The notes below the pieces were generated by a model. It was given only the letters and a program-made list of their open reading frames with translations, was not told where the DNA came from and did not search any database. DNA of 45,353 nt from Sphaerochaetaceae bacterium (GTDB taxonomy: Bacteria; Spirochaetota; Spirochaetia; Sphaerochaetales; Sphaerochaetaceae), in contig JAQQAR010000060.1 of NCBI GenBank assembly GCA_028532765.1, forward strand, positions 1 through 45,353, in the 5' to 3' direction. Of this stretch, positions 5,133 through 23,679 are shown piece by piece. The translations under genes and the position numbers were made by a program. The first letter of the stretch is position 1. The number at the start of each line of letters is the position of its first letter.

Positions 5133-5134
5133 TA

Positions 5135-5166
5135 GCTCGCTACGCCTAGCGGGCATCCTGCTTTTT
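5135..5166 (+). terminator. Possible intrinsic terminator after the nucleotidyltransferase
   Basis: The stem GCTCGCTA / TAGCGGGC (one G-U pair) with loop CGCC is followed seven bases later by a run of five T. It separates the nucleotidyltransferase from the kinase, so those two genes may be only partly co-transcribed. Confidence 0.45.
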
Positions 5167-5240
5167 GTAATTAAGTTGTACCATGAGCTTTAAAAGTGCG
5201 ATACAATACTTAAGATATTCATTAGGGGAAACAGATTACC

Positions 5241-6425: not shown

Positions 6426-6505
6426 AAAGCTTTGCTTAAGCAATTGAAGGATGGAAGGAAATCCTTATTCTCAGGCAAGCATACATAATCAATAAAATTT
6501 AAATA

Positions 6506-6560
6506 TTGACAGCAGTCAAATCCGATGGTAAGGTAGGTAAAACGATTACGAAAACGATTT
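6506..6560 (+). promoter_or_regulatory. Promoter and repeated operator of the TRAP operon
   Basis: A TTGACA -35 box (6506-6511) is followed after 17 bases by a weak -10, TAAGGT (6529-6534). Just downstream is an exact 9-bp direct repeat AAAACGATT at 6539-6547 and 6551-6559, separated by ACG. Its position over the expected start suits repression by the LacI protein encoded at the end of the operon. Binding by that protein is inferred. Confidence 0.55.
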
Positions 6561-6586
6561 CTTAAATCTTTATTAAGGATGTCATA

Positions 6587-7384
6587 ATGGATAATGCATT
6601 TACTTATTCTATGAAGATGACCATTTCACCAACACGAAAAGAGATGGGTCAGTCAGCTGGACAATGTGGAGAAGAACTGCTTGTTTCGCTTCTAGCACAA
6701 AAAGAAACAGTCCGTGTAATAATGGGTTCGGCTCCTAGTCAAGATGATGTTTTAGGGTATTTGAGAGAAAGTAAGAAAATAGATTGGGCGAGGGTTGAGG
6801 TCTTTCACATGGATGAATATATTGGCATTTCTCCTGATGATAAGGCAGCCTTCAGCAACTATTTAGACAGAACTTTATTTCACTCTGTTAAGGTAAAAGC
6901 TTTCCATAAAATTGTTGCAAACAACCAGTTTCCTCAATCTGTATGTGATGAATATTCCAAACTGTTGCTCGCCGCTCCAATTGATATAGTCTTTCTCGGA
7001 ATAGGAGAGAACGGACACATTGCTTTCAATGACCCTGAAATGGCGGATTTAAAGGATCCTCTCCCAATGAAGATTGTAACTCTCGACAATGTCTGTAGAA
7101 TGCAACAAGTGCACGATGGTTGTTTCAATTCATTTGAAGAAGTACCTAATAAAGCTCTTTCATTGTCAGTTCCTATGTTGATGAGTGGATCTCATCTTGT
7201 GTGTACTGTCCCTACTGCTAAGAAGAATAAAGCATGTCTGCGAATGATTATGGGTTCCATAAGTGCAGAATGTCCTGCAACAGCTATGAGATTGCATCCT
7301 GATTGTAATCTTTTTATGGATAACGAATCAGGACATGGTATCCCAGACTTTGAAACAGTAGAGACGGTCTTAAGTAAAAAGTAA
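6587..7384 (+). CDS. NagB-like sugar-phosphate isomerase/deaminase
   Basis: A 265-residue protein of the glucosamine-6-phosphate deaminase / 6-phosphogluconolactonase fold. The general-base segment FHMDEYIG (D76) and the catalytic loop GIGENGHIAFNDP (138-150, H144) are present. In E. coli NagB the loop reads GNDGHIAFNEP, so the Asp before Gly-His is Asn and the Glu is Asp here. The later R-x-QQV and VPNKALSL segments also match the family. These changes suggest a related amino-sugar phosphate or another 2-keto sugar phosphate as substrate. AAGGAT precedes ATG 6587 by seven bases. It is the first gene of the TRAP transporter operon, whose imported compound it probably processes. Confidence 0.78.
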   Translation: MDNAFTYSMKMTISPTRKEMGQSAGQCGEELLVSLLAQKETVRVIMGSAPSQDDVLGYLRESKKIDWARVEVFHMDEYIGISPDDKAAFSNYLDRTLFHSVKVKAFHKIVANNQFPQSVCDEYSKLLLAAPIDIVFLGIGENGHIAFNDPEMADLKDPLPMKIVTLDNVCRMQQVHDGCFNSFEEVPNKALSLSVPMLMSGSHLVCTVPTAKKNKACLRMIMGSISAECPATAMRLHPDCNLFMDNESGHGIPDFETVETVLSKK

Positions 7385-7426
7385 ATGGTATTTGAAAAAT
7401 TCAAGAAAAACTTTAGGAGGAAAAAT

Positions 7427-8413
7427 ATGAAGAAAATTACAATTTGTCTAATCTTCGTATTGGTTGCATCGGTTTCACTTTTCGCAAGTGGAAAATCAGA
7501 AAGTGGTTCGGTAGGTCCTTATCAGGTGAAATTTACAACTGAGAATGGTTCAGAGGATGTTGAATCCAAGGCATTGTATGAGATTAAGGATATTCTCAAC
7601 AAGAGTGGTCTTTTTAATGTTGAAGTGTTCATTGGTGGAGCTCTTGGGGAAAACGATGATACTCTTGAGCAGGCTATTCAAGGTGCTGCAATTGTGACTA
7701 TTTCCGATCCAGGAAGACTTATGAGCTTTGTTCCTGATTTTGGGATTATTCAAATGCCATACCTTATTGATGATGTTTCTGTTATTAACAAATTATTAGA
7801 AACAGAAATCTACAAGGGGTGGGAGAGAGAGTTCGAAGAACAAGGAATCAAGGTCCTTACATCTAACTGGTATAGTGGACCTCGGAACTTTGTATTAGAC
7901 AAAGCAGTTGATACCCCGGAAGACCTTAAAGGGCAGAAGATTCGAACCATTGCAAGTCCACTTTTTACCGAAAGTGTTAACGCTATGGGTGCTGTAGCAA
8001 CACCAATGTCTTGGTCAGAAGTATATCCAGGAATTGAACAGGGAGTAATTGATGGCTGTGAGGCTCAGACTCCAACTGTATATGCTTCTCATATCTATGA
8101 GGTTAGCAAATATATTAACAAGACTGAACACTTCCAGTTGATTGGCTGCCCTGTTATCGGAACAATATCCTTCGATTCATGGAGCAAAGAAGCTCAAGAT
8201 TTGTTCGTGAAGACATTTAGGGAGACTGGTGTTAAGTATCAGGAACTCGTACTTGGTATGATTGAGAGTGAGGAGAAGGAAATGGCTGAAATGGGTATGA
8301 TTATCAGAGAAGTTGATAAGGCTCCATTTAAAGCAGCTGTACAACCGGTATATGAGAAACTCGGATATACAGATGTCCTTAAAGAGATTTCTGAAGAACT
8401 TGGATTGAACTAA
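7427..8413 (+). CDS. TRAP transporter solute-binding protein (DctP family)
   Basis: A secreted binding protein of about 328 residues. The signal peptide MKKITICLIFVLVASVSLFA ends at SLFA-S; no lipobox cysteine is seen. ATG 7427 follows AGGAGG by six bases, so the longer frame from 7385 is not used. The DctP pattern is clear: a first lobe with YEIKDILNKSG and GENDDTLEQAIQGAA, then SNWYSGPRNFVLDK, the DLKGQKIRT segment, and the ligand-binding AMGAVATPMSWSEVYPGIEQG. It delivers a small acid or sugar acid to the DctQM permease. A perfect hairpin follows the gene. Confidence 0.92.
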   Translation: MKKITICLIFVLVASVSLFASGKSESGSVGPYQVKFTTENGSEDVESKALYEIKDILNKSGLFNVEVFIGGALGENDDTLEQAIQGAAIVTISDPGRLMSFVPDFGIIQMPYLIDDVSVINKLLETEIYKGWEREFEEQGIKVLTSNWYSGPRNFVLDKAVDTPEDLKGQKIRTIASPLFTESVNAMGAVATPMSWSEVYPGIEQGVIDGCEAQTPTVYASHIYEVSKYINKTEHFQLIGCPVIGTISFDSWSKEAQDLFVKTFRETGVKYQELVLGMIESEEKEMAEMGMIIREVDKAPFKAAVQPVYEKLGYTDVLKEISEELGLN

Positions 8414-8430
8414 GTTTTAAGTTTAGAATG

Positions 8431-8460
8431 AGCATCTGTCTCAGCATTGAGACAGATGCT
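8431..8460 (+). other. Perfect intercistronic hairpin between dctP-like and dctQ-like genes
   Basis: Twelve-bp arms AGCATCTGTCTC and GAGACAGATGCT flank the loop AGCATT. No T-run follows, so it is more likely an mRNA-stabilising or partial-termination element than a full terminator. It lies 18 bases after the binding-protein stop and 11 before the permease start. Confidence 0.8.
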
Positions 8461-8470
8461 ATGGGGTTAC

Positions 8471-8974
8471 ATGATGGAAAAACATGGTTCAGTTCGTTCA
8501 ATAACTCGTCGATTCTACAATATGATTTGTGTGGGAGAAGTCTACATAGCTGCATCATTATTTGTATTGATTGTTATATTGGTGTTCATATCGGCTCTCT
8601 CAAGAAAAATTGGTCTTCCGATTCAATGGACAATGGACATTACAAAGTTATGCTTTGCTTGGTTGGCTTTTTTAAGCGGAGATATTGCTCTTAGGTCTGG
8701 GGTGCTTCCGGGTATTGATATGCTTGTTATTAAATTACCACCTAAACTTCAAGTTCTACTTACGTATACTGCAAAGCTATTTATGTTCATGCTTCTTGCC
8801 TTTTTTGTTTATTATGGGTTCAAACTTGCAAGCTCGAATGTTAAAAGAACTTTCCAAACATTACATATAAGCTATTCATTTGTGACAATGAGCCTTCCGG
8901 TTTGCTCGGTATTAATGATGATGTCAATGATATCAAATGCAATAGATGATTTGAAAATGAAAACTAATAGGTAG
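8471..8974 (+). CDS. TRAP transporter small permease (DctQ family)
   Basis: An integral membrane protein of 167 residues with four hydrophobic helices (around CVGEVYIAASLFVLIVILVF, the LCFAWLAFLSGDIALRSG region, LFMFMLLAFFVYYGF and SYSFVTMSLPVCSVLMMM). The segment FAWLAFLSGDIALRSG matches the family's conserved W-x-x-F-x-G-x-x-x-x-R motif. The start at ATG 8471 (or 8474) is preferred because GGGG lies a few bases before it; an earlier TTG at 8447 falls inside the hairpin loop. It bridges the binding protein and the large permease. The next gene starts seven bases after its stop. Confidence 0.85.
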   Translation: MMEKHGSVRSITRRFYNMICVGEVYIAASLFVLIVILVFISALSRKIGLPIQWTMDITKLCFAWLAFLSGDIALRSGVLPGIDMLVIKLPPKLQVLLTYTAKLFMFMLLAFFVYYGFKLASSNVKRTFQTLHISYSFVTMSLPVCSVLMMMSMISNAIDDLKMKTNR

Positions 8975-8980
8975 TGTGCC

Positions 8981-10267
8981 ATGTATCTTCTTCTAATATT
9001 ATTTGTCGTATTGCTTCTAATAGGAATGCCAATCGCGTTTGTAATTGGTATATCGGGTATGGGTTACTTTTTAATAGAGAGAGTTGTTCCTTGGACTGTT
9101 CTAGTCCAACGAGTCGTGGCACAAACCCAATCGTTCACATTTCTAGCTATACCATTTTTTATTTTTGCTGGAAATCTAATGAATGAAACAGGAATTACAA
9201 AGAATCTTCTTTCACTTGCCAAACTTTTAACAAGGAAGATGTATGGTGGAGTCGCACAGGTAAATATTGTGCTTTCAACTCTTATGGGGGGCGTCTCTGG
9301 ATCAGCTGTAGCAGATGCAAGCATGCAGATTCGTATTCTTGGACCTGAGATGGATAAGCATAATTATCCCAAAGGTTATACTTCTGCTGTTACTTGCTTA
9401 TCTGGTCTTGTGACTGCAACAATTCCTCCTAGTCTTGGATTGATCCTGTTTGGTTTTCTCGGCAATGTATCCATCGGAAAACTCTTTATTGCTGGGATTA
9501 TCCCTGGGTTTCTTATGGCTGTTTTCTTGATGGGAGCAGTAAGCATCACAGCACGTTATCATAAATATGATACGCCAGTGGAGGATGCAACTTTTCCTTC
9601 TTTCAAAGAAATTGGAGTGAATCTTAAAAAATCAGTATGGGCTCTTCTATTTCCAGTTATTCTGATTGTTGGTATCCGATTTGGTGTCTTCACTCCATCA
9701 GAGGCGGGTGCATTTGCTGTTGTGTATTCAATCTTTTGTGGAGTCTTTATATATCACGAATTGACCATTGAAAAATTCTGGAAGGCTCTAAGAAATGCAA
9801 TTTCGGATTTGGGTTCCATAATTATTATTATTGCGTTTAGTGGTATTTTTGGGTATGCATTAACCTTTGGGCGTGTCCCGGTGTTGATGAGTGGATTCCT
9901 TCTTTCGATCACAACCAATGGAACATTAATGATGCTGTTGATGTTGACCTTCCTCTTTTTTGCAGGGATGTTTCTTGATAGTGATGTTAATACGCTCTTG
10001 CTCACTCCAATTTTTGTACCGGTAGTTATATCACTAGGTATAGATCCAGTGCATTTTGGAATCTGCATGTCTACTATTATAACCCTTGGGTGTATGACCC
10101 CTCCAGTTGGAACAGGTATTTATATCGTCTGTGGTATAGAAGGGTGTCCAATTAATGAATATATAAAAGAATCTAAACCATTCTTTTTGGCGATATTTCT
10201 AGAAATCTTGGTATTGGTGTTTTTTCCACAAATAACCTTGTTTTTACCAAATCTTATCTACGGATGA
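8981..10267 (+). CDS. TRAP transporter large permease (DctM family)
   Basis: A 428-residue polytopic protein, the sodium-coupled transport subunit of the TRAP system. The N-terminal VLLLIGMPIAFVIGISG and the conserved AIPFFIFAGNLMNETGITK and LMGGVSGSAVADASMQIRIL segments are classic DctM signatures. A second half shows FLFFAGMFLDSDVNTLLLTP and LGCMTPPVGTGIYIVCGI. Length and motifs are complete. It follows the small permease by seven bases and precedes the cupin gene by four, so all are in one operon. Confidence 0.93.
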   Translation: MYLLLILFVVLLLIGMPIAFVIGISGMGYFLIERVVPWTVLVQRVVAQTQSFTFLAIPFFIFAGNLMNETGITKNLLSLAKLLTRKMYGGVAQVNIVLSTLMGGVSGSAVADASMQIRILGPEMDKHNYPKGYTSAVTCLSGLVTATIPPSLGLILFGFLGNVSIGKLFIAGIIPGFLMAVFLMGAVSITARYHKYDTPVEDATFPSFKEIGVNLKKSVWALLFPVILIVGIRFGVFTPSEAGAFAVVYSIFCGVFIYHELTIEKFWKALRNAISDLGSIIIIIAFSGIFGYALTFGRVPVLMSGFLLSITTNGTLMMLLMLTFLFFAGMFLDSDVNTLLLTPIFVPVVISLGIDPVHFGICMSTIITLGCMTPPVGTGIYIVCGIEGCPINEYIKESKPFFLAIFLEILVLVFFPQITLFLPNLIYG

Positions 10268-10720: not shown

Positions 10721-11806
10721 ATGACATTGAAGGATATTTCGAAGGCTACTGGGTACTCCCTGACTTCCATACATCGAGCGATATACAATAAAGAGGGACT
10801 CAGTCCTAAAACAAGAGAGAAAATTCTTAAAGCTGTAGAGAGTATGGGGTATGAAGTTAATTATATTGCCTCATCGCTCAAGCGGAAAACCATGAATATT
10901 GCTTTTGTAGGGAAGAAACCACGTATCAATAATGATTACCACTATATGATTGCAGAGGGAGTCAAATCAGCATTCTCTCAGGATGTAGGGATGAACATTG
11001 CCTTACGAGAATACTATTTCGATGGTTCCCTTACGGATCTTGGAGATGCAGAATTTAAAATTCTCTCTGAGATTTATTCGTATGATGATCTAGACGGGGT
11101 AGTGATAATGCCAACCAATACAGGAGCAAAACTGCAACTTGCCATACAGAAACTCATTAGTAAAGGTTTTTCTGTTGTTTTGGTTGATGATTCCTTTGAG
11201 CAGATGGATTTTCTCTGTGCTGTTGAGCCTTTTAACGATTTGATTGGAAAAACCGCTGCAGAATTCATGAGTCAAATTTGTCAGCCTGGTAAAGTTCTGG
11301 TTGCTCTTGGGGATCCAGCTAGCAATGGACAAATGGAAAACTACGATAGTTTCCTAGGGTATTTACAAGAGCATAATACACCTATCTCCTGTATCACTGT
11401 TCCAGACTCTAAAGACAAAGAGAAGCTTGTGGAACAGCTTATAACATTGATTGATGATGAGGTAGTGGGGCTATACACTGTTTGTGAATCAAACACTCCA
11501 GCTATTTGTAAGGCAGCACTCGCATCAGGACGAGTTGATTTGAAGGTTCTAGGCTGTGATTTGAGCCCTGATAATAAAAAGTATCTTGGAAAAGGGGTTT
11601 TGTCAGGTATCTTGGACATGAATTCATATCTTCAAGGATTTCTTGCAATGCGCGTATTGCTAGAGTATCTCTTGAAAAATATTCCTCCAAAAGCATCAAT
11701 TCTCTCTGTTCCTGTACGGCTTGTGCTACGAAGCAGTTTGGAATTTTTTGAGGGAGAATATAGTGCAGGTATTTCCATTGCTACCCGTTCTCATGTAGTG
11801 CATTAA
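10721..11806 (+). CDS. LacI-family transcriptional regulator
   Basis: A 361-residue regulator. The N-terminal helix-turn-helix begins MTLKDISKATGYSLTSIHRA and continues to the hinge helix near residues 45-55 (NYIASSLKRK). A type 1 periplasmic-binding-protein sensor domain fills the rest, with GVVIMPTNTGA and VLGCDLSPDN as typical strands. It lies 54 bases after the cupin gene, on the same strand, and is most likely the local repressor of the TRAP operon; a 9-bp direct repeat in that promoter is a candidate site. The inducer is unknown. It is convergent with the next gene. Confidence 0.88.
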   Translation: MTLKDISKATGYSLTSIHRAIYNKEGLSPKTREKILKAVESMGYEVNYIASSLKRKTMNIAFVGKKPRINNDYHYMIAEGVKSAFSQDVGMNIALREYYFDGSLTDLGDAEFKILSEIYSYDDLDGVVIMPTNTGAKLQLAIQKLISKGFSVVLVDDSFEQMDFLCAVEPFNDLIGKTAAEFMSQICQPGKVLVALGDPASNGQMENYDSFLGYLQEHNTPISCITVPDSKDKEKLVEQLITLIDDEVVGLYTVCESNTPAICKAALASGRVDLKVLGCDLSPDNKKYLGKGVLSGILDMNSYLQGFLAMRVLLEYLLKNIPPKASILSVPVRLVLRSSLEFFEGEYSAGISIATRSHVVH

Positions 11807-11922
11807 ATTGTTTTTGTAGATAATCTCTCAATAATAAATATGAATGTGAACCTTGCTAACCATAAATTCACAGATAATAATTATTGTCGTTGATAATACT
11901 CTTGCAGATACTTCAATTACAT

Positions 11923-14187
11923 CTACAATTCAGCCAGCTCTTCCTGTGTTTTGCGAATAGCCACTTGTACATCAATCTCTTTTTCCATCAGTTGGTAAAA
12001 CCAGTTACAAATGATGGTATCAACCTTGTTCTGAGGAATAACCTTTCCCTCTGTATTTGTAGGTGGAATAATGGGTTTTCCATACTTGTATGATGAACAG
12101 TAAAGAGGGAACCAAGGATAGAGCTTCGCCAATTCGTCATTGAGATAGGTCTTGCGTACCGCAGAGAAACCTCCTAGGACCGCAAAATATGAGCTAATGG
12201 TGTCCATACACGCCCATTTGATGAATTCAAATGCTTGTACTTTCTTTGTGCTGCTTGAGCTGATCCCAAGGCCCCATCCACCAAGGATCGGTATACCCCC
12301 AGGAATTTCACTGTATCCAATATTCTCTTCTTTGATGACTTGATCAGTTTGAAGGGCAATCTTATTGAAGAATGAAGGATAGGTGATAACCATTGCCGTC
12401 TCTCCGCAGAGAAAATCCTTGACCACACTCTCTTCATTGGATTCCAGATAATTGGGTTTGACATATTTCAACAAACGAAGTGTTGCAACATAGCTCTTGA
12501 GTACGTTCTGGTTATTCAGAAGAAGATTGGTTGAGGCTTTTGTGAGAGGATTATCCTTATTAAAAGAAAGCAACCTTAGGAAGATCTCAGGTGCGAGGCA
12601 TTCAGGATAGGCCGCAGGAAAGGAAGTTCCGTAGTCAATGGAATCCGAATGTACGGTGAAGAACTGTGCAATGGCATTGAACTCTTTCCAAGTCTTTGGA
12701 GGTCTCAACGCAGTGCGAAATTTCTTCCTATATGCTGCTTGGTTGGTTTCATCCTCAAAAAGGTCTTTTCTGTAGTATAAAATCTGCGGAGCATACATAA
12801 ACGGAAGTCCATATACATTATCTTTCCATTGGCCGAAGAACTCTGCAGAATTCGGGAAAAAGAGGTCATTGTACTTTTCTGAGTCTCTTGTCTTATCAGT
12901 GATATTGGTAAGAATATCGTTTTGCACCAGTGTTTCCAACCAAGGAATATCATACATGATCACATCACTCTGTTTCTGGGAGTGAGGATTTTGCTTCTCT
13001 TCCAGTATCCGTTCAAGTAATTTTTGGTGTGAAATTACAGATATCTTGGGTTTGAAACCAAAATTAGTGGAGAAATTGTCTAGAATACTAATAAGGGCAT
13101 GGGTCTGAGTGGTATCGAGCATCAGTACATTCAATTCAGTATCACTGTGCTGTTTTGGCTTCTCCTGTATTCCAAACAGATGATGATTCTCAATAGTATC
13201 TCCGGTTATACGATCTGAGAAAATGATATTTTTGCTTTCAAGAACAGGCCGCTCAATCTCATCCACAAGAATTGAGGCGGCTGTCGAGCCAATCTTAATT
13301 GCAGGTCTCAGCGTGGAGAGGGAGGCTTCACTGTAAGTGAGGGAGTTCCAATGTTCCTCCCCCAGCGTGACAACGGGAATATCATCTTGGGAATACCCTA
13401 GGAACAATAGACTCTCAATAATGCCTTTTGCCTTATTTTCCGAAGTAGTGAGGATTGCATCAGGTTTTTGTTCTTTGAGAATACTGGACATACTGACAAC
13501 AGCTCTGAACGTATCTTCCTTGCTCAGTAGTGGCGTAATAATATGGTTCTTGGGAAGTTCCATTGCAGTATGCTCAAATGCAGTCGAGAAGCCCCTGATG
13601 CACTCTGATTCGCAATAATACTTCTCCGGACCAGTAAACAAGAATAAGTTCTTCTTCTCATCCTTAATAAGTGCTCTAGTGAGCTTAAGGAGCGTAGTAT
13701 AATTATCATTCATGACAAAACTACACTCCAGCCCCTCCATCTTTCGGTCTATAAGGACCAAGGGGATGTTTCGCTCAATAAACGTTTCGTAGTATTTTTT
13801 CCATTCATCAGGAATTGAGGTAAAAACGATCAAGCCGCAGATTTGTTTCTTTGCAAACGTCTCAATACAGGAAATCTCATAATCTTTTCGTTCATAGGAA
13901 AGTGCAAGATTAATGATGTAGGGTGTATCACGGAACACACTCTCGATTCCTTCCAATACCTTGATGTAGTAGTTATCCTCAAAATTTGGGAGTAATACGC
14001 CAATATCATTGTATTGTTTGGTTCTCAGGTTCTTTGCAAGATAGTTTGGCTTATATGCAGTTTGGTCAATTGCAGTGGCAATCCGCTTGGCCGTTTCGGG
14101 ACTCACGGGTTTCGATTTATTGAGATAATTTGAAACAGTTCCAATCGAAACACCTGCTAATATTGAAACATCCTTGATCGTTGCCAT
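11923..14187 (-). CDS. LacI regulator fused to a family 1 extracellular solute-binding domain
   Basis: A 754-residue, three-part protein without signal peptide, so cytosolic. Residues 1-55 are a LacI DNA-binding domain (MATIKDVSILAGVSIGTVSN). About 60-335 form a type 1 binding-protein sensor (IGVLLPNFEDNYYIKVLEGI; GLIVFTSIPDEW). About 350-754 form a complete SBP_bac_1-type fold, with NVYGLPFMYAPQILYYRKDL, PPKTWKEFNAIAQF and the C-terminal GGWGLGISSSS. It may therefore sense two ligands. ATG 14187 follows GGAG by six bases; the upstream in-frame ATG 14199 is part of that site. It lies downstream of the creatinase-like operon on the same strand, separated by a hairpin and a palindromic operator. 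Confidence 0.88.
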   Translation of the reverse strand: MATIKDVSILAGVSIGTVSNYLNKSKPVSPETAKRIATAIDQTAYKPNYLAKNLRTKQYNDIGVLLPNFEDNYYIKVLEGIESVFRDTPYIINLALSYERKDYEISCIETFAKKQICGLIVFTSIPDEWKKYYETFIERNIPLVLIDRKMEGLECSFVMNDNYTTLLKLTRALIKDEKKNLFLFTGPEKYYCESECIRGFSTAFEHTAMELPKNHIITPLLSKEDTFRAVVSMSSILKEQKPDAILTTSENKAKGIIESLLFLGYSQDDIPVVTLGEEHWNSLTYSEASLSTLRPAIKIGSTAASILVDEIERPVLESKNIIFSDRITGDTIENHHLFGIQEKPKQHSDTELNVLMLDTTQTHALISILDNFSTNFGFKPKISVISHQKLLERILEEKQNPHSQKQSDVIMYDIPWLETLVQNDILTNITDKTRDSEKYNDLFFPNSAEFFGQWKDNVYGLPFMYAPQILYYRKDLFEDETNQAAYRKKFRTALRPPKTWKEFNAIAQFFTVHSDSIDYGTSFPAAYPECLAPEIFLRLLSFNKDNPLTKASTNLLLNNQNVLKSYVATLRLLKYVKPNYLESNEESVVKDFLCGETAMVITYPSFFNKIALQTDQVIKEENIGYSEIPGGIPILGGWGLGISSSSTKKVQAFEFIKWACMDTISSYFAVLGGFSAVRKTYLNDELAKLYPWFPLYCSSYKYGKPIIPPTNTEGKVIPQNKVDTIICNWFYQLMEKEIDVQVAIRKTQEELAEL

Positions 14188-14229
14188 GCACCTCTCCATT
14201 GCTATAGTAATGATAAATCAGTAGGGAAA

Positions 14230-14314: not shown

Positions 14315-14349
14315 GAAACACCCCGCGACCTCAGGTTACAGGGTGTTTC
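14315..14349 (-). terminator. Inverted repeat after the creatinase-like gene
   Basis: GAAACACCC (14315-14323) and GGGTGTTTC (14341-14349) form a perfect 9-bp stem 29 bases beyond the stop of the minus-strand M24 gene. No clear T-run follows on the minus strand, so termination strength is uncertain. Confidence 0.5.
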
Positions 14350-14377: not shown

Positions 14378-15550
14378 TTAGCATGGGATTTCATAAATTT
14401 TTCCAAGAGGTTCACTGAGCAACAAAGATTTTCCAGGTTTTACGCAAATTCCTGTTTCCCACCTGCAACCGAACTTTTCTGCCGAAAAATACGTGTCTAC
14501 TTGGAATGTCATGTTTTCCTGAAGCTTATAGTTGGAAGAGGTTTCCATCCAAGGAGCCTCTACCTCGATCATACCGGTTCCATGACATGGTCCGTACACA
14601 AAGTAGTCCTGCATCCCGGCTTCAACAGCTTTGGCATAGAAATCCTTGGCAATCTTCGATGCCTCAGCTCCTACCTTCACCTGCTCAAGTGTCCAGTTAT
14701 GCATGGAGAGACAAAATTCAACCAAGTCGCGCTTCTCACCGACAAGTGGTCCCATACTGATAGGCATCCCGATACTTGGACTGTATCCCTCGATCTTTGC
14801 CGAAAGGTTCAGCTGTACCAGGTCTCCTTTCTCAATGGTTCGATAGGTAGAACGTGAGATGGCATGACTGGTCGATTTTTCGCTGAAAACGTACATCGGA
14901 AGCCCTTCGTATTCAGCTCCATGTTCATAGATGCATTTCTGTGCGATACCAACCATCTGGAGCTCAGTTACTCCTGGGCGAATTTCAGCCATTACAGCTT
15001 CAGTAGCCATCTTTACAATGTCGAACCCTCTTTGCATACAGGCAAGCTCATTGACAGATTTAATCATTCTGAGAGAACGGACAATCTCTTCATTCCTGAT
15101 AATTTCGGCATTCGGGAAACATCTTTTCAAACCTTCAAGCTGAATGGGGTTGGTAACCAGGTATCCAGCAATACCAATGCGTAGATTGCTTCCTTTCACT
15201 CCGAGAAACTCAAACACATCTTTGTATGTACTTACTTTTGCTTCAGGATATGCAGGATCTGCTGATTCTCGATACTCCAACAACGTGAAGATATCTTTGA
15301 GCACGCTCCTGTCAGCAGCGTACTTTGAGCTTTCAGGACCTACCATCAAAGCAGCTTTTCCATCTCGTCCAATAGCCACCCCTGCAGTTTCGAAAAGTGG
15401 CCAGTAGTTCGTAAAATACCGCACGAATGAATAGTCTGCTTCATTGCAGTGAGTGACCAAAACATCCAATCCAGCTTCTTCCATCAACTTTGAAGCCTTC
15501 TTGATTCTCCCAAAGTACTCTTCTTCTGGGATCCTGACCCTGTCCATCAT
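14378..15550 (-). CDS. Creatinase-like protein of the M24 (pita-bread) family
   Basis: A 390-residue protein with the creatinase N domain (about 1-160) and the M24 pita-bread C domain (165-385). The usual metal ligands of aminopeptidases are mostly gone: the D-x-G strand reads LNLSAK (N248), GY-x-SD reads GYSPSI, the Glu of the next strand is D352; H323 (CHGTG) and E365 remain. Creatinase also lacks the metal and has LN in this strand, and its catalytic His aligns by eye with H229 (STSHAIS). It may thus cleave a guanidino or amide bond rather than a peptide. AGGAGG precedes ATG 15550; the start overlaps the DUF4432 stop by four bases. A creatininase-family gene lies across the divergent promoter. 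Confidence 0.8.
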   Translation of the reverse strand: MMDRVRIPEEEYFGRIKKASKLMEEAGLDVLVTHCNEADYSFVRYFTNYWPLFETAGVAIGRDGKAALMVGPESSKYAADRSVLKDIFTLLEYRESADPAYPEAKVSTYKDVFEFLGVKGSNLRIGIAGYLVTNPIQLEGLKRCFPNAEIIRNEEIVRSLRMIKSVNELACMQRGFDIVKMATEAVMAEIRPGVTELQMVGIAQKCIYEHGAEYEGLPMYVFSEKSTSHAISRSTYRTIEKGDLVQLNLSAKIEGYSPSIGMPISMGPLVGEKRDLVEFCLSMHNWTLEQVKVGAEASKIAKDFYAKAVEAGMQDYFVYGPCHGTGMIEVEAPWMETSSNYKLQENMTFQVDTYFSAEKFGCRWETGICVKPGKSLLLSEPLGKIYEIPC

Positions 15551-16590
15551 ACAATTCCTCCTAATATAGTAATTGCTGTTTGTAATGATTTACTTTCTGG
15601 GTTTTCATCCAACCCAAATGCAAATTGGAACCTTATCGAGCTGCCTGGTTCAAGTAGTTTCATATTTCCTTGCTTGGTTTCAGCTGTTCTCCCTCTAGGA
15701 CCTGCAGTTGCAGGTAGGCTGAACCCACAGGCTGAGCGGTCCAGCGTCTTGGTCAGCCAGGCAACGGTGTGGTCGAGTGTAGAGGTGTTTGTTGCGACCC
15801 AAACCCTCTCATGATTCTCACGAATCATTGTATTTACACACACATCTCCATGTTCTGGCTTATTCTTCATGATTGCCACCAGTTCAGGACTGATCGTGGA
15901 AATCTTTGATGGGTGTAAGAAAATAGTCGGCTCATCAACCACACCGGGAATGGTTTCATCGAGTACTGTTACTGTTTCCTTGTTGAATTCATCAATTCCA
16001 TACTGCAACTCAGTGACATGGTCCAATGAGAGATTCAGATGATTGAGATACATGTATTCCATTGGTGTTTTCTGTAGGTTCTTCAGCTGTGAATCAACCA
16101 ATACAGAGGTACCTGTCTCGGAAATCCTGAGGGAAGGGGAGAATTCATACGAGGCAATGAAAGGAACTGTATACTGATAACTCCCGTGTAATGATACTGG
16201 GAACGGTCCATCAGATATCTCGATCCAGGCACTGTCATATTTTGCAAGAGGCAACTCTCCATGATGAAGATGGGTATCGGCTTTGCTTGGGTTCCCCATT
16301 GCAGTAATACCGCAATGGATCATGAGAGCTCCATAATTGTGAAGGAAGTTTCTGGCAGCGTAGTCAGGTTCAGATACAAACCCCTTGAATTTTTGTTCAA
16401 TGCCGCCAACCTTCCAACTCCAGAGGCTCTGTCCAAAGAACGGTAGCCATACAAAGGTTCCAGCCCCAATTGAAATATGGACAGCCTCCACCCCTGTCTT
16501 ATAGAGAAAGGTGGAAATGCGTGTGGTATTATTCTCAAGAACCAATGTTTCCGTTGAGGTGAATTGTGGTTTTGTTACATGCAATTTCAT
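15547..16590 (-). CDS. DUF4432 / aldose-1-epimerase-like protein
   Basis: A 347-residue beta-rich protein of the DUF4432 galactose-mutarotase-like superfamily. The segment NYGALMIHCGITAMGNP followed by HLHHGELPLAKYD matches the family's conserved strand carrying the active-site-like histidines. A later segment MEYMYLNHLNLSL resembles its E/N-H strand. Members are thought to bind sugars, but the reaction is not established. AAGGA lies about eight bases before ATG 16590. It is first in a two-gene minus-strand operon with the creatinase-like gene (ATGA overlap) and divergent from the transducer-like gene. Confidence 0.78.
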   Translation of the reverse strand: MKLHVTKPQFTSTETLVLENNTTRISTFLYKTGVEAVHISIGAGTFVWLPFFGQSLWSWKVGGIEQKFKGFVSEPDYAARNFLHNYGALMIHCGITAMGNPSKADTHLHHGELPLAKYDSAWIEISDGPFPVSLHGSYQYTVPFIASYEFSPSLRISETGTSVLVDSQLKNLQKTPMEYMYLNHLNLSLDHVTELQYGIDEFNKETVTVLDETIPGVVDEPTIFLHPSKISTISPELVAIMKNKPEHGDVCVNTMIRENHERVWVATNTSTLDHTVAWLTKTLDRSACGFSLPATAGPRGRTAETKQGNMKLLEPGSSIRFQFAFGLDENPESKSLQTAITILGGIV

Positions 16591-16852
16591 GAATCTATTC
16601 CTTCATAGTATCACTGTAATGGCATTGTAATGGTGCTATTTTGAATGCACAAGAAATATAGCGATTAATTATACTAAAATATATTGAAACGATTTAATGA
16701 AAAAATAATTAGTACACCTATTGTTTTCTTGCAAATTCAAAAATCCGTTTCTATACTACATTTGACTTGAAAAATGTATCGAATGTATTTCTTAAAGCCT
16801 ACAATAAATAGCATGAGAGAAATGATTATGCTAAGCATTTAAGGAGTCGAAT
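16591..16852. promoter_or_regulatory. Divergent AT-rich control region of the creatininase/creatinase locus
   Basis: This 262-base gap separates the DUF4432 operon (minus) from the transducer/creatininase operon (plus). It holds the word GAAACGATTT near 16688, similar to the AAAACGATT repeats of the TRAP promoter, and a direct repeat AATGTAT near 16774 and 16783. A TTGACT at 16762 is a possible plus-strand -35, with no good -10 at 17 bases. Regulation by one of the nearby LacI-type proteins is likely but not shown. Confidence 0.45.
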
Positions 16853-17212
16853 GTGGACTACGGAAAAAAAGTGTGGGTCTTTCCTGATGCAGAGTTGCCT
16901 CCAGTTGGAAATAACCCAATCCCCGGACATGAATCGATTATTATCACCAACCTTGGAGACCAGGAAGCATGCATTTCGATCACCTTGCTCTATGTTGATA
17001 AGGACCCGGTTGGAGATATTACTGTTTCTGTGGGTGCTAAACGAGTTCGCTGTCTCCGAACCAATGAAGATAAGGATTTCCCTGGTCATACAGCAACCAT
17101 CGGGGAGCAATATGCAATTCTGTTGGAAAGTAATGTACCTGTGGTAGCCCAATACGGTAGAGCTGAACCCCGTAATGTGAGTTTCTATACGACTCCTGGG
17201 TACTGTGAATAG
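16853..17212 (+). CDS. Sensory rhodopsin transducer (ASRT) family protein
   Basis: A 119-residue all-beta protein. GKKVWVFPDAELPPVG at the N-terminus, HESIIITNLGDQEACISI, the DKDPVGDITVSVGAKR strand and the C-terminal VPVVAQYGRAEPRN match the Anabaena sensory rhodopsin transducer family. The start is GTG 16853: AAGGAG (16841-16846) lies six bases upstream, and the ATG at 16851 is out of frame. No rhodopsin gene is in the window. Family members outside phototrophs have been proposed to bind small molecules, often near sugar genes. It sits nine bases before the creatininase-family gene and is surely co-transcribed with it. Confidence 0.85.
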   Translation: MDYGKKVWVFPDAELPPVGNNPIPGHESIIITNLGDQEACISITLLYVDKDPVGDITVSVGAKRVRCLRTNEDKDFPGHTATIGEQYAILLESNVPVVAQYGRAEPRNVSFYTTPGYCE

Positions 17213-17221
17213 GAGGAAAGA

Positions 17222-17959
17222 ATGCAATTGATTGATATGTTCTTTGACCAGATTGAGGATGCGAAAAAGCGGAATGTCCCTTTCATTATTCCCATCGGTA
17301 CCATTGAATACCATGCTCATCATGCATCTTGTGGTACAGACACAATGGTGATCAATGGATGTTTAAGAGAATTTGAGAAAGAGAGGGAAATCGTTGTAAT
17401 GCCACCCATTTGGTACGGGGTTGCCTCATACGCTGTTGGGGGTCCTGAAACCGGGACAATCCATGTTGATGAAGATGCCCATACCCAATATCTCTATGCT
17501 GTGTTGAAATCGCTCATCTATGGTGGGAACAAGAATATATACCTCATGGTACACCACCAGACAGAAGAAGATGCCTTGATGCCGATGACCATCTCCTGCC
17601 ATAAAGCTGCAAAGAAAATAATCATGGAGTATATGGAAGAAACAAGAGGAAGAGGTTGGTGGGGAAGGAACAGCTTCAAGGACTACTATGAGAAGCTTGG
17701 TTCTGGAGATGACCCATTCTCCTACATAAAGGTAGTGCCGTTGATCGGGAAAGAAGCGCAGCATGCCTGCGGGGGCTTTGATCATGCTGGTAAATGGGAA
17801 ACTTCCCTGATGATGGGCACATACCCTGAGAATGTAGACCTAACATTATGTGAGAGGAATACAGAGTGGTTTGCGCAAAATGCTGTTGAAGCAAGCACAG
17901 AGCTTGGAGGGCATATGGTTTCTTGTGTGCTTGATTGGTTGCGCAAGACAATCGTTTAA
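17222..17959 (+). CDS. Creatininase-family amidohydrolase
   Basis: A 245-residue protein of the creatininase family, metal-dependent hydrolases of cyclic or linear amides. The motif GTIEYHAHHASCGTD (26-40) holds E29, H31 and D40 with exactly the E-x-H-x8-D spacing of creatininase E34/H36/D45. FDHAGKWETS (186-195) matches the HAG-x-x-ETS motif. The usual NGH-x-x-N loop is VHHQTEE (110-116), a departure. AGGAGG precedes ATG 17222. It follows the ASRT-family gene and precedes a sugar-type binding protein. True creatininase activity is not assured; many relatives act in sugar-amide or cofactor pathways. Confidence 0.82.
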   Translation: MQLIDMFFDQIEDAKKRNVPFIIPIGTIEYHAHHASCGTDTMVINGCLREFEKEREIVVMPPIWYGVASYAVGGPETGTIHVDEDAHTQYLYAVLKSLIYGGNKNIYLMVHHQTEEDALMPMTISCHKAAKKIIMEYMEETRGRGWWGRNSFKDYYEKLGSGDDPFSYIKVVPLIGKEAQHACGGFDHAGKWETSLMMGTYPENVDLTLCERNTEWFAQNAVEASTELGGHMVSCVLDWLRKTIV

Positions 17960-18028: not shown

Positions 18029-19030
18029 ATGAAAAAAGGAGTTGTTGCATTACTGGTTCTCGTTTTGGCGAGCACAATGGTTTTTGCCCAAGGTGCACCA
18101 GAAGGGGCTGATGATCAAACAAAAATCGGTGTAAGCATCATGGAATTGTCTGCTTATACATGGTACCTCGGAGTAATTGATGGTTGTGAGCAGTGGGCGG
18201 ATGATAACCCAGAAGCAAACTTCACATTCCAATTTGAGGATTCTCGTTCTGACGTATCTACCATGCTGAACAACATTGATGCACTGATAACCGGTGGAGC
18301 GGAAGGTATTATCCTATTCCCAGCTGATGCATCCTCAGCAATCCCAACCATGAAGCAGTATGTCGCGAAAGGAATTCCTTTCGTCATTGGTGACTATGCC
18401 CAGAATCCACAGAAAGAAAGCGATATTGTTTGGGAGACTTTTGTCGGTCACGACATGAGGATGCTTGGAGAAACAGCAGGACATGTTGCTGTTGAGTATC
18501 TTAAAACCCTGAACAAACAGAATCCCGTTTGTTTGTTCATCAGCAGACCTACTTCGGGGCAAGTCTCAGTCGACCGGTATGAGGGGTTCAGGGATGTGGT
18601 ATTAGCTTCCTTCCCGAAAGCAAAGATTATTGAAGAAGGTGATGTTGGTGCTGGTTCAAGAGATTCGGCCCAGAGCCTTATGGAGAATGTCTTGCAGAGA
18701 GAGCCTGTCATCGATGTGGTCAGTGGACACAACGATGCTGAGGTCGTGGGTGCTTATAATGCTGCGAAGGCTGCCAACAGACGAGAGATCAAATTCATTG
18801 GAATTGCAGGTGACAAGGATGTTCTCACCTATATTACCGATGGAAATGAGAGCTGGATTGGTGAAGTTCTCCAGAACCCAGTAGACCTAGGGTATCAGGC
18901 AACTGAGGCAATGTACCAGGCACTGGTTGAGAAGAAGACCCTCGAGAAAGTTTGGGATCTTCCAAAACCGGAAGCAATCACCCCAGCGAATGTCGCTGAC
19001 TACGATTGGCAGAACTGGTCCTGGTTGTAG
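18029..19030 (+). CDS. Ribose-type (CUT2) ABC transporter substrate-binding protein
   Basis: A 333-residue periplasmic binding protein of the type 1 (RbsB-like) fold. The signal peptide MKKGVVALLVLVLASTMVFA ends before QGAPEG. Typical features are the first-lobe strand IGVSIMELSAYTWYLGVIDG, EGIILFPADASSAIP, and the second-lobe VVSGHNDAEVVGAYNA. AAAGGAG precedes ATG 18029. It feeds the ATPase and permease further along the operon. A hairpin follows. The ligand is unknown, but the flanking creatininase-family and glycosidase-like genes suggest an amide-bearing or otherwise modified sugar. Confidence 0.9.
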   Translation: MKKGVVALLVLVLASTMVFAQGAPEGADDQTKIGVSIMELSAYTWYLGVIDGCEQWADDNPEANFTFQFEDSRSDVSTMLNNIDALITGGAEGIILFPADASSAIPTMKQYVAKGIPFVIGDYAQNPQKESDIVWETFVGHDMRMLGETAGHVAVEYLKTLNKQNPVCLFISRPTSGQVSVDRYEGFRDVVLASFPKAKIIEEGDVGAGSRDSAQSLMENVLQREPVIDVVSGHNDAEVVGAYNAAKAANRREIKFIGIAGDKDVLTYITDGNESWIGEVLQNPVDLGYQATEAMYQALVEKKTLEKVWDLPKPEAITPANVADYDWQNWSWL

Positions 19031-19109: not shown

Positions 19110-21185
19110 ATGATTACTGTATTACCGGAACCCAAACGTCTGATTGATACCGAGGGTTTCACAACACTTTTTACAACTATACATATTGGTACTGATGATG
19201 CACGGTTACTGGAAATTGCAAAAAACCGTTTTTGGAATTATCCAGGTATTCTTGGTGATACCACATCGCACTCTCTACAAATTGATTTGGTCGCATCCTT
19301 GGAGGCGATTGAGGTCGAGAATGAAGAGTTGTATAGAGAGCAAGGATATGCTCTGGTGGTTACAAAAGAACACGTTACATTGCGTTATGAACATAACGCT
19401 GGGTATATACATGGACTTACCACCATCAAGATGTTACTGCAGGAAAAACCTAACGGTTATATCCTCCCTTGTTGCGAGATTGTAGATTGGCCTTCAGTTG
19501 CGGTTAGAGCGGTAGCCCCTACATTCTCCTGGTATGCGGGGTATGGAAGAATAGGGTTTGACTCACAACTCTGGGACTATGATAAATGGGTTGAGTTCCT
19601 GAACATCAGTCTCGATAACAAGATCAACCAATTCAACATGGTCATGTATGGATACTGGCCTTTTGAGTTTGAGCAATACCCCGAGACAGTCTTGAGAGAT
19701 GTTCCCCTCAGAATTTGGAATGCTGAGAACAATACATGGCTACCGATCAAATATACGCACCCCAATATCTTAAACCCCTATCTTGATAAACTCATCGAGT
19801 ATGGGCATATGATGGAATTCTCATTTTTTGCTTATGTTGGCCTGAATTCCTATAATGGAGGATATTCCATCAAGCATCCTGAAGCCAGGATGATCCCACC
19901 AGAATCCAGCCAGTTTCTCAATGATTTTGACTCACTCTGTCTGAGCAATGAACAGAATGTGGACTATATCCTCTCTTCAATGCGGCACATTGCCAAATTG
20001 GGATTTGATGGATTCTCATTGGAGGAGAGTGAAGAAGGATTCTGGTTCTGTGAGTGTGAGTCTTGCAAGAACCATTGGAGAGAATCAGGTGCAAGTCCAG
20101 TTGAAGCAAAACATAAGGCAAACATCTGGTTGCTGAATAAGATCTGGGAGACGGTGAAGTCAGTGAACCCTGATGCGATTTTGGGTATCAGGGCTTTCAG
20201 GCAACCACCTCTTGAGAAGGATCCTTCATTTCTGGATGAGTGTGTTCGCACCATGCCGAAAGGTATCAATCTTTTTTGGGCACCAGGTCTCTATGTTCCA
20301 GAGACCGAGTTCCCCAAATGGGTCCATGCCTTTGGGAAAGAGCATATCTGGGGAAGGGACACTGAAGCAAATTCAATTACCTCTACCATGGGAAGACTCT
20401 ACCGAACCTTTGCCTCAAACATGATTCGCTATGAGGATGAGGCAAATGAACAAGTCATTGAGACTGATATTGCCCAACATCTTGGAAGTATTGAAATGGG
20501 TGTGCACGGGATCAATGGATTCATGTTTGAATGGTATGGCCTGTTCCTTCATGAATTCGCCCATGGTAATTATGGGTGGGGATCGAAAATGGATAGCGAA
20601 ACATTCTTCAAGCGTGCTTGTCAGTTACATTTTGGCCATCTCGGAGAGAAGGTGCTCTATGTGATGAAAAACATGCTTACCATCCACGAGAGCCAGATGC
20701 CGTTCTACACCACTGCATTCCCATTCCAGAAAAACAAGATACAGAAGAGTGATATCCCTACAATCATGGAAGCCAAGGAGAGGCATCCTAAGATTCTTGC
20801 GATACTCGAGGAGCTTCACAGTGCCTGCAATGAGAACCCACGGCTACAATGTTGGGCTCCCCATTTCAGCAAGTTGATCAATGCTGAGAGAAGAAATGCA
20901 GTAATCTATGACATGGTTCTTGTCTCTTTGGCATACGAAGAAGAGCAGGATCCAGATAAGAAGGATGCACTTCTTGATGAAATCCTCTTGTTCAATGAAC
21001 GGGACTTTGGCATCGCAAAGGAGATGTTCTTTGATGTGAATCCTGTAAGTGAAACCGGTGTGAAAAGCTGCATGTTCCCTTATCATGAGATTAAAAGACT
21101 GATACACAACATCAGGCATCCAGAAGACCCAGACAATGACATCATTTGTTCTGGTATCGAAGCTCTTGGTTGGCTTTGGTTGTAA
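19110..21185 (+). CDS. Glycoside hydrolase-like protein with GH20-type N domain and DUF4838-like core
   Basis: A 691-residue cytosolic protein (no signal peptide). Residues 1-115 follow the pattern of the N-terminal domain of beta-hexosaminidases: VLPEPKRLID at the start, then YALVVTKEHVTLRYEHNAG and GLTTIKMLL. The central barrel includes DWPSVAVRAVAPTFSW, DGFSLEESEEGFWFCECESC and NPDAILGIRAFRQPP; the C-E-C-x-x-C element resembles DUF4838 / alpha-glucuronidase-like proteins. Candidate acid residues are in EESEEG, but I cannot name the catalytic pair. The rest is helical. It lies between the binding protein and the ATPase of a sugar ABC operon, so it probably hydrolyses the imported glycoside inside the cell. 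Confidence 0.65.
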   Translation: MITVLPEPKRLIDTEGFTTLFTTIHIGTDDARLLEIAKNRFWNYPGILGDTTSHSLQIDLVASLEAIEVENEELYREQGYALVVTKEHVTLRYEHNAGYIHGLTTIKMLLQEKPNGYILPCCEIVDWPSVAVRAVAPTFSWYAGYGRIGFDSQLWDYDKWVEFLNISLDNKINQFNMVMYGYWPFEFEQYPETVLRDVPLRIWNAENNTWLPIKYTHPNILNPYLDKLIEYGHMMEFSFFAYVGLNSYNGGYSIKHPEARMIPPESSQFLNDFDSLCLSNEQNVDYILSSMRHIAKLGFDGFSLEESEEGFWFCECESCKNHWRESGASPVEAKHKANIWLLNKIWETVKSVNPDAILGIRAFRQPPLEKDPSFLDECVRTMPKGINLFWAPGLYVPETEFPKWVHAFGKEHIWGRDTEANSITSTMGRLYRTFASNMIRYEDEANEQVIETDIAQHLGSIEMGVHGINGFMFEWYGLFLHEFAHGNYGWGSKMDSETFFKRACQLHFGHLGEKVLYVMKNMLTIHESQMPFYTTAFPFQKNKIQKSDIPTIMEAKERHPKILAILEELHSACNENPRLQCWAPHFSKLINAERRNAVIYDMVLVSLAYEEEQDPDKKDALLDEILLFNERDFGIAKEMFFDVNPVSETGVKSCMFPYHEIKRLIHNIRHPEDPDNDIICSGIEALGWLWL

Positions 21186-21199
21186 AAAGAGGTAGATGA

Positions 21200-22705
21200 A
21201 TGGATGCAGAGAAGTTGGTTGAAGTAAAAAAATGCACAATGATCTTTCCTGGGGTCAAAGCCTTGGATGAGGTTGACTTTACGTTGTTGGCCGGTGAATG
21301 CCATGGGTTAGTGGGAGAGAATGGGGCCGGAAAATCGACCTTATCCAAGTGTATCATCGGAGATTATCACATGACAGCTGGAGAGCTGTTTGTCCAGGGT
21401 GAACCTATTCATATCCCTTCCTATTCAGTCAGAAAGTCGAATGAAATGGGGATAGCTATTGTCCATCAGGAATTTCAGCTCATGGAAGACATGAGTGGGC
21501 TGGAGAATATATTCATTGGACGATATGAGAAAAAGGGACCTGTCATCGACTGGAAACAGTTGCAGGAACGTGCAGATGAGTTGTTGGAATACCTGCAGTG
21601 TGAGGTAGATCTCAAGGTGAAAGTGAAACACCTGAGAACTGCTGAGAAACAGATCATCCAGTTGGCAAAGGCAATGCTCGATAATCCGAAGGTTCTGATT
21701 CTGGATGAACTTACAGCAGTTCTCCAAGAAGAGGGTATACAGAATATTTTTAGAATCATTGAGCTGCTCAAGGCAAGAGGTATCGGAATCATTTACATCT
21801 CCCACCGCCTGGATGAGATTTTTGAATGTTGTGATCGTTATACGGTGCTTTGTGATGGGAAGTACATCAACAGTGGGTTTGTAAAGGATATCAATAAACA
21901 TCAATTGGTTAAGATGATTATTGGTAGAGAGTTGAAGAATGTGTATCCGGAGAAGAACCAACAGTTTGGTGAAACTTTGTTGGAGGTGCGACATCTTACT
22001 GCTCCCAAGGCATTCAAGGATGTTTCTCTTGATGTAAAAGCAGGTGAGGTTGTAGGTATTTCAGGCTTGCTTGGCGCTGGGAAAACGGAACTGATCCATG
22101 CAATCTATGGAAACCATAAGATTGTCTCAGGGGAAGTTTTTGTTCGTGGGAAGCCTGTTCGGATCAAGAATCCAAAGATGGCTATCAAGCTGGGACTTGG
22201 GTTGGTTCCTGATGAGAGGCGAATCTTGGGGTTGAACATGCTCTATAACATCAAGGAGAATACCATTCTCCCTTCGATGAATAAGTTCAGGAAGTGGAAG
22301 ATATTCCAAGACCACGAAAAAGAGGAACAAGCGGCAAAGGACATCAATGCCAAGATGAATCTTCGATACTACTCGTTGAGGCAGCTGATCAGCAAGCTCT
22401 CTGGGGGAAACCAGCAAAAGGTTGTAATTGCGAAGTGGATGCTGCGTGAATGTGACATCTTCCTTCTAGATGAACCAACGAGAGGTATTGATATTGGCGC
22501 TAAGTTCGAGATCTATTCCTTGATCAATGAACTTGCAAAGGCAGGCAAGGCTGTTATTTTGGTTTCTCCGGAACTTGAAGAAATTATTGGTCTCTCAAAC
22601 AAGGTATATGTCTTGTATGAGGGACAGGTGATGGATTTGGTTGAGGGCGAGAATATTAAACAAGAAGTAATCATCCATGATTTATTAGGAGTAAAAGAGA
22701 AATGA
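21200..22705 (+). CDS. Sugar ABC transporter ATPase with two nucleotide-binding domains (RbsA/MglA type)
   Basis: A 501-residue duplicated ATPase. The first domain has Walker [10 protein letters not shown] (39-47) and Walker [11 protein letters not shown] (166-175), where most homologues read DEPTAAL. Its signature is the weak LRTAEKQ form usual in this half. The second domain has GLLGAGKTE, the strong signature [15 protein letters not shown] and [10 protein letters not shown]. This asymmetry is normal for CUT2 transporters, except for the Pro to Leu change after the Walker B glutamate. AAAGAGG lies before ATG 21200. The stop overlaps the permease start by four bases. Confidence 0.92.
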
Positions 22706-23679
22706 ATGCAGTAAAAACGGTCGAAGAGAGGAATAATAAGTTCAAGGGAGATTTTAAATCCTTTTTTCATGAATGGATGATTCTTTTCTTATTTATCCTC
22801 CTGTTTGCCATATGTAGTATTAGTTCAGCCAAATTCCGTACTACTGACAATATCATGAATATTCTGAGGCAAGCCTCCTTCATCTCTATTATTGCCTTGG
22901 GAGAATTCTTTGTTGTCTTGATCGCGAATATGGATATGTCGATTACTTCCATTATTGGAATGACTTCCATATTTTTCGCAGGCTTGGTGGTGAATGCAGG
23001 AATCCCAATGTTCTGGGCTTTTGTGATTGTATTTGGTCTTGCAATCCTTGTTGGTATTCTCAATGGTGCTCTTACCGTGTATGGACATATGCCTTCGTTT
23101 ATTGCCACACTTACGGTGATGAACATCATCAAGGGTATCTACTTTATCTATTCGAAGGGATTGCCAATTTCAGGACTTCCTGAAAGCTTCAACTTTCTGG
23201 GAGCCGGTTATATAGGATTTATTCCGTTCCCAGTAATCCTCCTGCTGATTGTAGCTACCACATTGCATATCTTTACGCAGCATACTGAGCTGGGAAGAAG
23301 CTTTTATGCTGTTGGAGGCAATATTGAGGCAAGCAAACTGTCAGGAATCAACGTTAAGTTCGTTGGAATTCTGGCATTTGTACTGAGTGCAATTCTGTCC
23401 TGTATTGGCGCTCTTGGGTTAACCTCAAAAACCTTGAGTGGAAATGTTGGAATCGGGGAGAACTTGTTGTTTGATGTAATGACAATCGTAGTACTCGGTG
23501 GTACTTCTCTTTCAGGCGGAAGGGGAAAGATATTCGGTGTAGTTATCGGAGCGCTGTTCCTGCAAGTAATCTCGAATATCATGATCCTGATGAGTATCAA
23601 CAGTTATTGGCAGTGGGTTGTGAAGGGTATTATCTTGATAGCTGTAGTGCTCATTGATTCCAATTCACGACACGACTAA
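22702..23679 (+). CDS. Sugar ABC transporter permease (RbsC type)
   Basis: A 325-residue membrane protein of the ribose/galactose permease family. Conserved stretches include [46 protein letters not shown], the cytoplasmic [14 protein letters not shown] loop and [20 protein letters not shown]. About nine hydrophobic segments are seen. The start ATGA overlaps the ATPase stop. Only one permease gene is present, so the channel is likely a homodimer as in RbsC. A strong terminator follows, closing the operon that begins at the ASRT-family gene. Confidence 0.92.

Follow-up and report, generated by a model that had tools for sequence, protein, structure and literature searches.

A spirochaete locus that carries, on opposite strands, an M24-fold gene and a creatininase-family gene beside a sugar-type ABC transporter raises the question of what the two encoded proteins act on: creatine and creatinine, as do the enzymes whose folds they resemble, or a derivative of the imported sugar. 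The locus was analysed within a 45,353-bp stretch of DNA (the window), whose contig belongs to a 3.16-Mb Sphaerochaetaceae genome.

Organization of the locus and its divergent region

The M24, DUF4432, ASRT and creatininase-family open reading frames of the window are real, intact and correctly placed; the closest named match of the M24 protein comes from a Spirochaetales MAG (89% identity in protein comparison). The features are as follows.

11923-14199, minus strand: LacI regulator fused to a second solute-binding-protein (SBP) domain, 758 aa (domain match)
14315-14349: terminator-like hairpin between the M24 and LacI-SBP genes (inverted repeat, 17-nt arms, 82% complementary)
14378-15550, minus strand: M24-fold ('pita-bread') protein, 390 aa (Pfam PF00557 Peptidase_M24, 89 bits; PF01321 Creatinase_N, 36 bits)
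15547-16590, minus strand: DUF4432 protein (galactose-mutarotase-like), first gene of its unit (Pfam PF14486, 59 bits)
16591-16852: divergent intergenic region, 262 bp, between DUF4432 and ASRT
16853-17212, plus strand: ASRT/ASRAH small-molecule (sugar) binding protein, 119 aa, GTG start (Pfam PF07100, 85.5 bits; translation)
17222-17959, plus strand: creatininase-family binuclear-metal-type hydrolase, 245 aa (Pfam PF02633, 104 bits)
18029-19030, plus strand: periplasmic sugar-binding protein (Peripla_BP_4) of an ABC transporter (domain match)
19110-21185, plus strand: GH20b-domain/DUF4838 glycosidase-like protein, 691 aa, without an obvious signal peptide (domain match)
21200-22705, plus strand: sugar ABC transporter ATPase, Rbs/Mgl/Xyl type (domain/profile match)
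22702-23679, plus strand: sugar ABC transporter permease (domain/profile match)

The minus-strand unit is read from DUF4432 into M24 with a 4-base overlap, and the plus-strand genes, from ASRT to the permease, follow one another in the order listed. An earlier note on this DNA had proposed that the M24 and creatininase genes share a divergent promoter. The divergent gap does exist, but it is bordered by DUF4432 and ASRT, the M24 and creatininase genes being second on their respective sides. It contains a LacI-operator-like sequence, TTGAAACGATTTAAT, at 16684-16698 as well as promoter-like sites; scanning of the 16591-16852 region returned no more promoter or operator sites than were found in shuffled sequences, so these signals are not above chance. 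The LacI-SBP fusion is probably the regulator, and in one other genome (G026, locus L056) it lies directly opposite the creatininase operon. Its second SBP domain is of the extracellular type, and the same fusion is present in genomes G001, G012 and G026.

Domain matches bear out the sugar-related surroundings that the note had described (DUF4432, ASRT, the sugar-type ABC transporter and the glycosidase-like gene). The DUF4432 protein weakly matches the aldose 1-epimerase-like structure 3ty1, and the ASRT protein clears the PF07100 gathering score of 25 bits. A solo ASRT gene accompanied by a monosaccharide ABC transporter, as here, is also found in the ASRT/ASRAH sugar-sensor operons (de Souza et al. 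2009, PMC2739507); of the signature SHExxCxxN given there the window protein keeps HE and has Ile in place of Cys. The ASRT neighbours named in the main text of that paper include no creatininase or M24 genes.

Folds and active-site residues of the M24 and creatininase-family proteins

The AlphaFold2 model of the M24 protein (pLDDT 95) covers a full pita-bread enzyme. In the VIA ranking its top matches are creatinases (Z 40.6, 40.5 and 40.2; 361-365 residues for 1chm and 7yto, Z 40.5-40.6), followed by prolidases at 40.1 and below (Z 37-40) and E. coli aminopeptidase P (Z 34). The fold is thus clear, while creatinase and prolidase are tied and the ranking does not separate them. Ectoine hydrolase DoeA/EutD (6twk), likewise an M24-fold non-peptidase, superposes with Z of about 39; it shares 18% identity with the M24 protein, which scores 34.7 bits against the DoeA profile (cut-off 613), and no ectoine genes were noticed near the M24 gene. 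Among proteins of solved structure, the sequence profile ranks Thermotoga APP (190 bits) and Pyrococcus prolidase (186 bits) nearest, with creatinase 1chm at 111 bits.

The set of five di-metal ligands of M24 metallopeptidases (D, D, H, E, E) is incomplete in this protein. In the alignment to 2zsg the two Asp positions are N248 and S259, the first Glu is D352, and His and the second Glu are kept as H323 and E365; the catalytic His pair of the metallopeptidases is replaced by I231 and V330. This agrees with the earlier observation that both Asp ligands had been lost (N248, GYSPSI and D352 are all present). Position 248 is N, G or D among orthologues. Creatinase, too, has Asn for the first metal Asp and lacks the second. 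The note had further assigned the role of the creatinase catalytic His to H229, and this assignment did not survive. The reference creatinase for profile alignment was a Paraburkholderia protein encoded beside an annotated creatininase gene (locus L127); in it, H229 aligns to G230, while creatinase H232, N249, E262 and E358 align to I231, N248, G261 and D352, respectively. Two profile alignments, together with variation of the residue itself (Asn in 16 of 27 orthologues), rule out a creatinase-type His at H229. All three of H232, E262 and E358, which we take to be the catalytic residues of creatinase, are therefore substituted, and with H232 and E262 not conserved, membership of the M24 protein in the creatinase family is not supported by its sequence.

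What the M24 proteins conserve instead is a set of their own. Across 27 orthologues 62 positions are invariant, and 13 of these (E37, P51, F53, E73, K164, E196, Y256, H323, E329, E331, D352, R363 and E365) stay so when nine paralogues, some with as little as 22% identity, are added. The resulting clade signature, H323xxGxxE329xE331 ... D352 ... R363xE365, sets the protein apart from creatinase, as does its sugar gene context. A mononuclear metal may be held by H323, D352 and E365.

The creatininase-family model (pLDDT 91) matches creatininase over the whole fold (1j2t, 3a6g), with Z 23.1 and 2.2 Å over 215 residues for 3a6g in VIA; the next unrelated fold has Z 7. Its PF02633 score, 103.8 bits against a gathering score of 31.3, likewise places it in the creatininase superfamily. 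Residues E29, H31 and D40, previously described as intact, are indeed so, and they are invariant in 24 sequences together with H112, Q113, E115, W146, W147, D187, E193 and S195. On alignment the creatininase ligands E34, H36, D45 and H120 are retained as E29, H31, D40 and H112, and the H178-E183 region also has an equivalent, whereas ligand E122 falls on T114. The invariant E115 lies one residue further on and, judging from the alignment, may replace E122 as a metal ligand. Invariant motifs of its own (HQxE, GxGWWG and DHAGxxETS) also distinguish the family from creatininase. Scores are far below cut-off for the creatininase equivalog TIGR04448 (62.8 bits against 235), for NF041098, the equivalog of the 3-dehydro-scyllo-inosose hydrolase IolN (55.1 against 245), and for the MftE equivalog. 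The reaction can therefore not be read from profiles. IolN and MftE belong to the same superfamily and give similarly weak scores, but their gene context is different. A formamidase and a peptidase are further members of the superfamily, and IolN itself hydrolyses a C-C bond.

Co-occurrence of the two genes and their wider neighbourhoods

If the two genes belonged to a linked pathway, as proposed earlier, they should occur together in other genomes, and they do, often adjacently and in several phyla. Among 100 relatives the M24 gene is present in 12 and the creatininase-family gene in 7, all 7 of which also have M24. For 241 Verrucomicrobiota/Lentisphaerae genomes the corresponding numbers are 32 and 13 (13/13 with M24), and for 199 Planctomycetota genomes 2 and 2, with one shared; the other planctomycete (G678) has a weaker creatininase match (33% identity) and no M24 gene. 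Hypergeometric probabilities, which ignore phylogeny, are 5e-8, 3e-13 and 0.02, respectively. The Spirochaetota genomes that have the pair belong to five families (f1, f22, f30, f45 and f71).

Physical linkage is seen at several levels. M24 and creatininase genes stand side by side in five genomes from three phyla (L003, L054, L055, L107 and L120), are separated by one gene in L036, and lie inside one cluster in the window and in L028, L029, L032 and L034; in most Lentisphaerae genomes they occupy separate loci. The M24 gene is also found without a creatininase gene (G040, G025, G044 and many Lentisphaerae), and thus the two are not obligate partners. Plasmid searches for orthologues returned relatives at about 25% identity only. 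The L034 cluster also carries two URO-D-family (corrinoid methyltransferase-like) genes, at 11214-12350 and 15344-16426.

A CE4/NodB-like deacetylase gene adjoins M24 in many loci. It is present in 27 of the 241 Verrucomicrobiota/Lentisphaerae genomes, 25 of them M24-positive, and absent from the window genome. Adjacency hinted that creatininase and CE4 deacetylase might be mutually exclusive partners; this was rejected, as 9 of the 13 creatininase-positive Verrucomicrobiota/Lentisphaerae genomes have both.

Genes around the pair are rich in sugar-related functions: ABC transporters, ASRT, GH20b/DUF4838, GH20C, GH4, MocA, ADH and DUF4432/DUF6786. In six loci (L003, L009, L010, L111, L115 and L126) a DUF6786-type gene immediately precedes either M24 or the deacetylase gene next to it. 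Like DUF4432, DUF6786-type proteins may be mutarotase-like, a weakly supported reading; the literature searched, an incomplete collection, held no paper on DUF4432/DUF6786 function. Beside the creatininase gene, large glycosidase-like proteins are encoded (the window GH, c15/c20, a 741-aa family and GH20C). They do not form a single superfamily: a short and weak profile match links the window GH to c15/c20, and no such match was obtained for the rest. The 741-aa family (about 741-753 aa; L132 6613-8868, with relatives in L130, L131, L135 and L143) adjoins the creatininase gene, and its L130 and L132 members, when scanned, had no Pfam match.

L038 (205-4215) and L057 (1-3400) each contain three non-canonical M24 paralogues in tandem, with an ASRT gene after them. 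In L033/L057, which are one contig of genome G040, the tandem genes are directly preceded by a sugar ABC transporter, which suggests a multi-M24 pathway.

A candidate pathway and its alternatives

We lean, with somewhat better than even confidence, towards reading the locus as one instance of a conserved gene module that breaks down a small sugar derivative taken up by the cell. The derivative would be imported by the monosaccharide-type ABC transporter, and a glycosidase-like protein in the cytoplasm (GH20b/DUF4838 in the window) would free or trim a sugar. The creatininase-fold metal hydrolase would then cut an amide-type bond, possibly in a ring, and the M24-fold protein would process either the same intermediate or the one that follows; it would probably lack the peptidase di-metal centre and use a clade-specific site rich in H323, E329, E331, D352, R363 and E365. 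DUF4432 would probably interconvert anomers, and ASRT and the LacI-SBP fusion would sense the sugar. The analysis shows which genes the module contains, how the two proteins fold, which residues they conserve, and that the genes co-occur and are linked; the order of reactions, the amide chemistry and the step of each enzyme we infer. A context of carbohydrate uptake and glycoside processing is supported, and the substrate is not fixed by any gene of the module; the amide- or guanidino-bearing sugar proposed in the note is a candidate. The amide reading draws on family knowledge (creatininase, ArfB, and the acyl chemistry of M20 and CE4 enzymes), and the range of reactions in the creatininase superfamily, from that of IolN to those of its formamidase and peptidase members, does not compel an amide step.

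Two matching folds side by side, as in the creatinase-creatininase operon of Paraburkholderia, would also be expected of a true creatinine-creatine pathway, in which creatininase opens creatinine, creatinase splits creatine and the sugar transporter is there by coincidence. Creatinase does top the ranking of the M24 model, but in a tie with prolidases; the substitution of H232 and E262 and the scores far under curated cut-offs speak against such a pathway, and the Paraburkholderia operon has a cytosine-permease-type transporter where the window has sugar ABC, ASRT and glycosidase-like genes. We regard this pathway as very improbable, and creatine or creatinine as unlikely substrates. Unlikely, to a lesser degree, is a scheme without any amide, with the creatininase-family protein as an IolN-like C-C hydrolase of an oxidised (keto) sugar or cyclitol whose product is taken by M24. 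Its IolN score is close to that for creatininase, GH4, ADH and MocA oxidoreductases adjoin the L036 pair, and L120 contains a MocA-like gene. Yet both scores are far below cut-off, the window operon has no inositol or keto-sugar oxidoreductase, and N-acyl chemistry is suggested by neighbouring genes for CE4 deacetylases and M20 deacylases.

The M24 protein might, instead, have no catalytic activity and serve in binding or regulation, or it might be a peptidase of the ordinary kind whose site is mononuclear; in either case its gene would lie near the creatininase gene incidentally. M24 pseudoenzymes are known, the catalytic His and both Asp ligands are gone, and a single metal could be held by the three residues named above. 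Of the 62 positions that are invariant in orthologues of different phyla, however, many are charged and fall at active-site positions by alignment, and this, together with the strict genome co-occurrence of the two genes, argues for a conserved enzymatic role; we consider incidental placement or inactivity rather improbable. Returning to the sugar-derivative module, a more specific version of it is put forward tentatively: the whole M24 clade (the window protein and its paralogues, three of which are in tandem in some genomes) may have a metal-free site that is not that of creatinase and may operate with creatininase-fold and CE4-fold hydrolases in an undescribed pathway for nitrogen-containing sugars in gut and sediment bacteria.

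Each protein comes from a known superfamily. In the incomplete collection of literature searched, we found no description of the combination, the M24 clade signature or the cross-phylum linkage, and no paper on this gene set. If our reading is right, a defined set of genes travels together through at least three phyla to carry out an unknown catabolic step, and one of its proteins stands for an M24 clade that does not consist of peptidases and whose active site differs from creatinase's. Likely labels such as Xaa-Pro peptidase or creatininase family would hide such a pathway. The question of its substrate is directly testable by way of the conserved residues and the partner genes. Elsewhere in the window (4389-10267) lies a separate cluster with genes for a nucleotidyltransferase, a GHMP (galactokinase-like) kinase, a NagB-like protein and a putative TRAP transporter.
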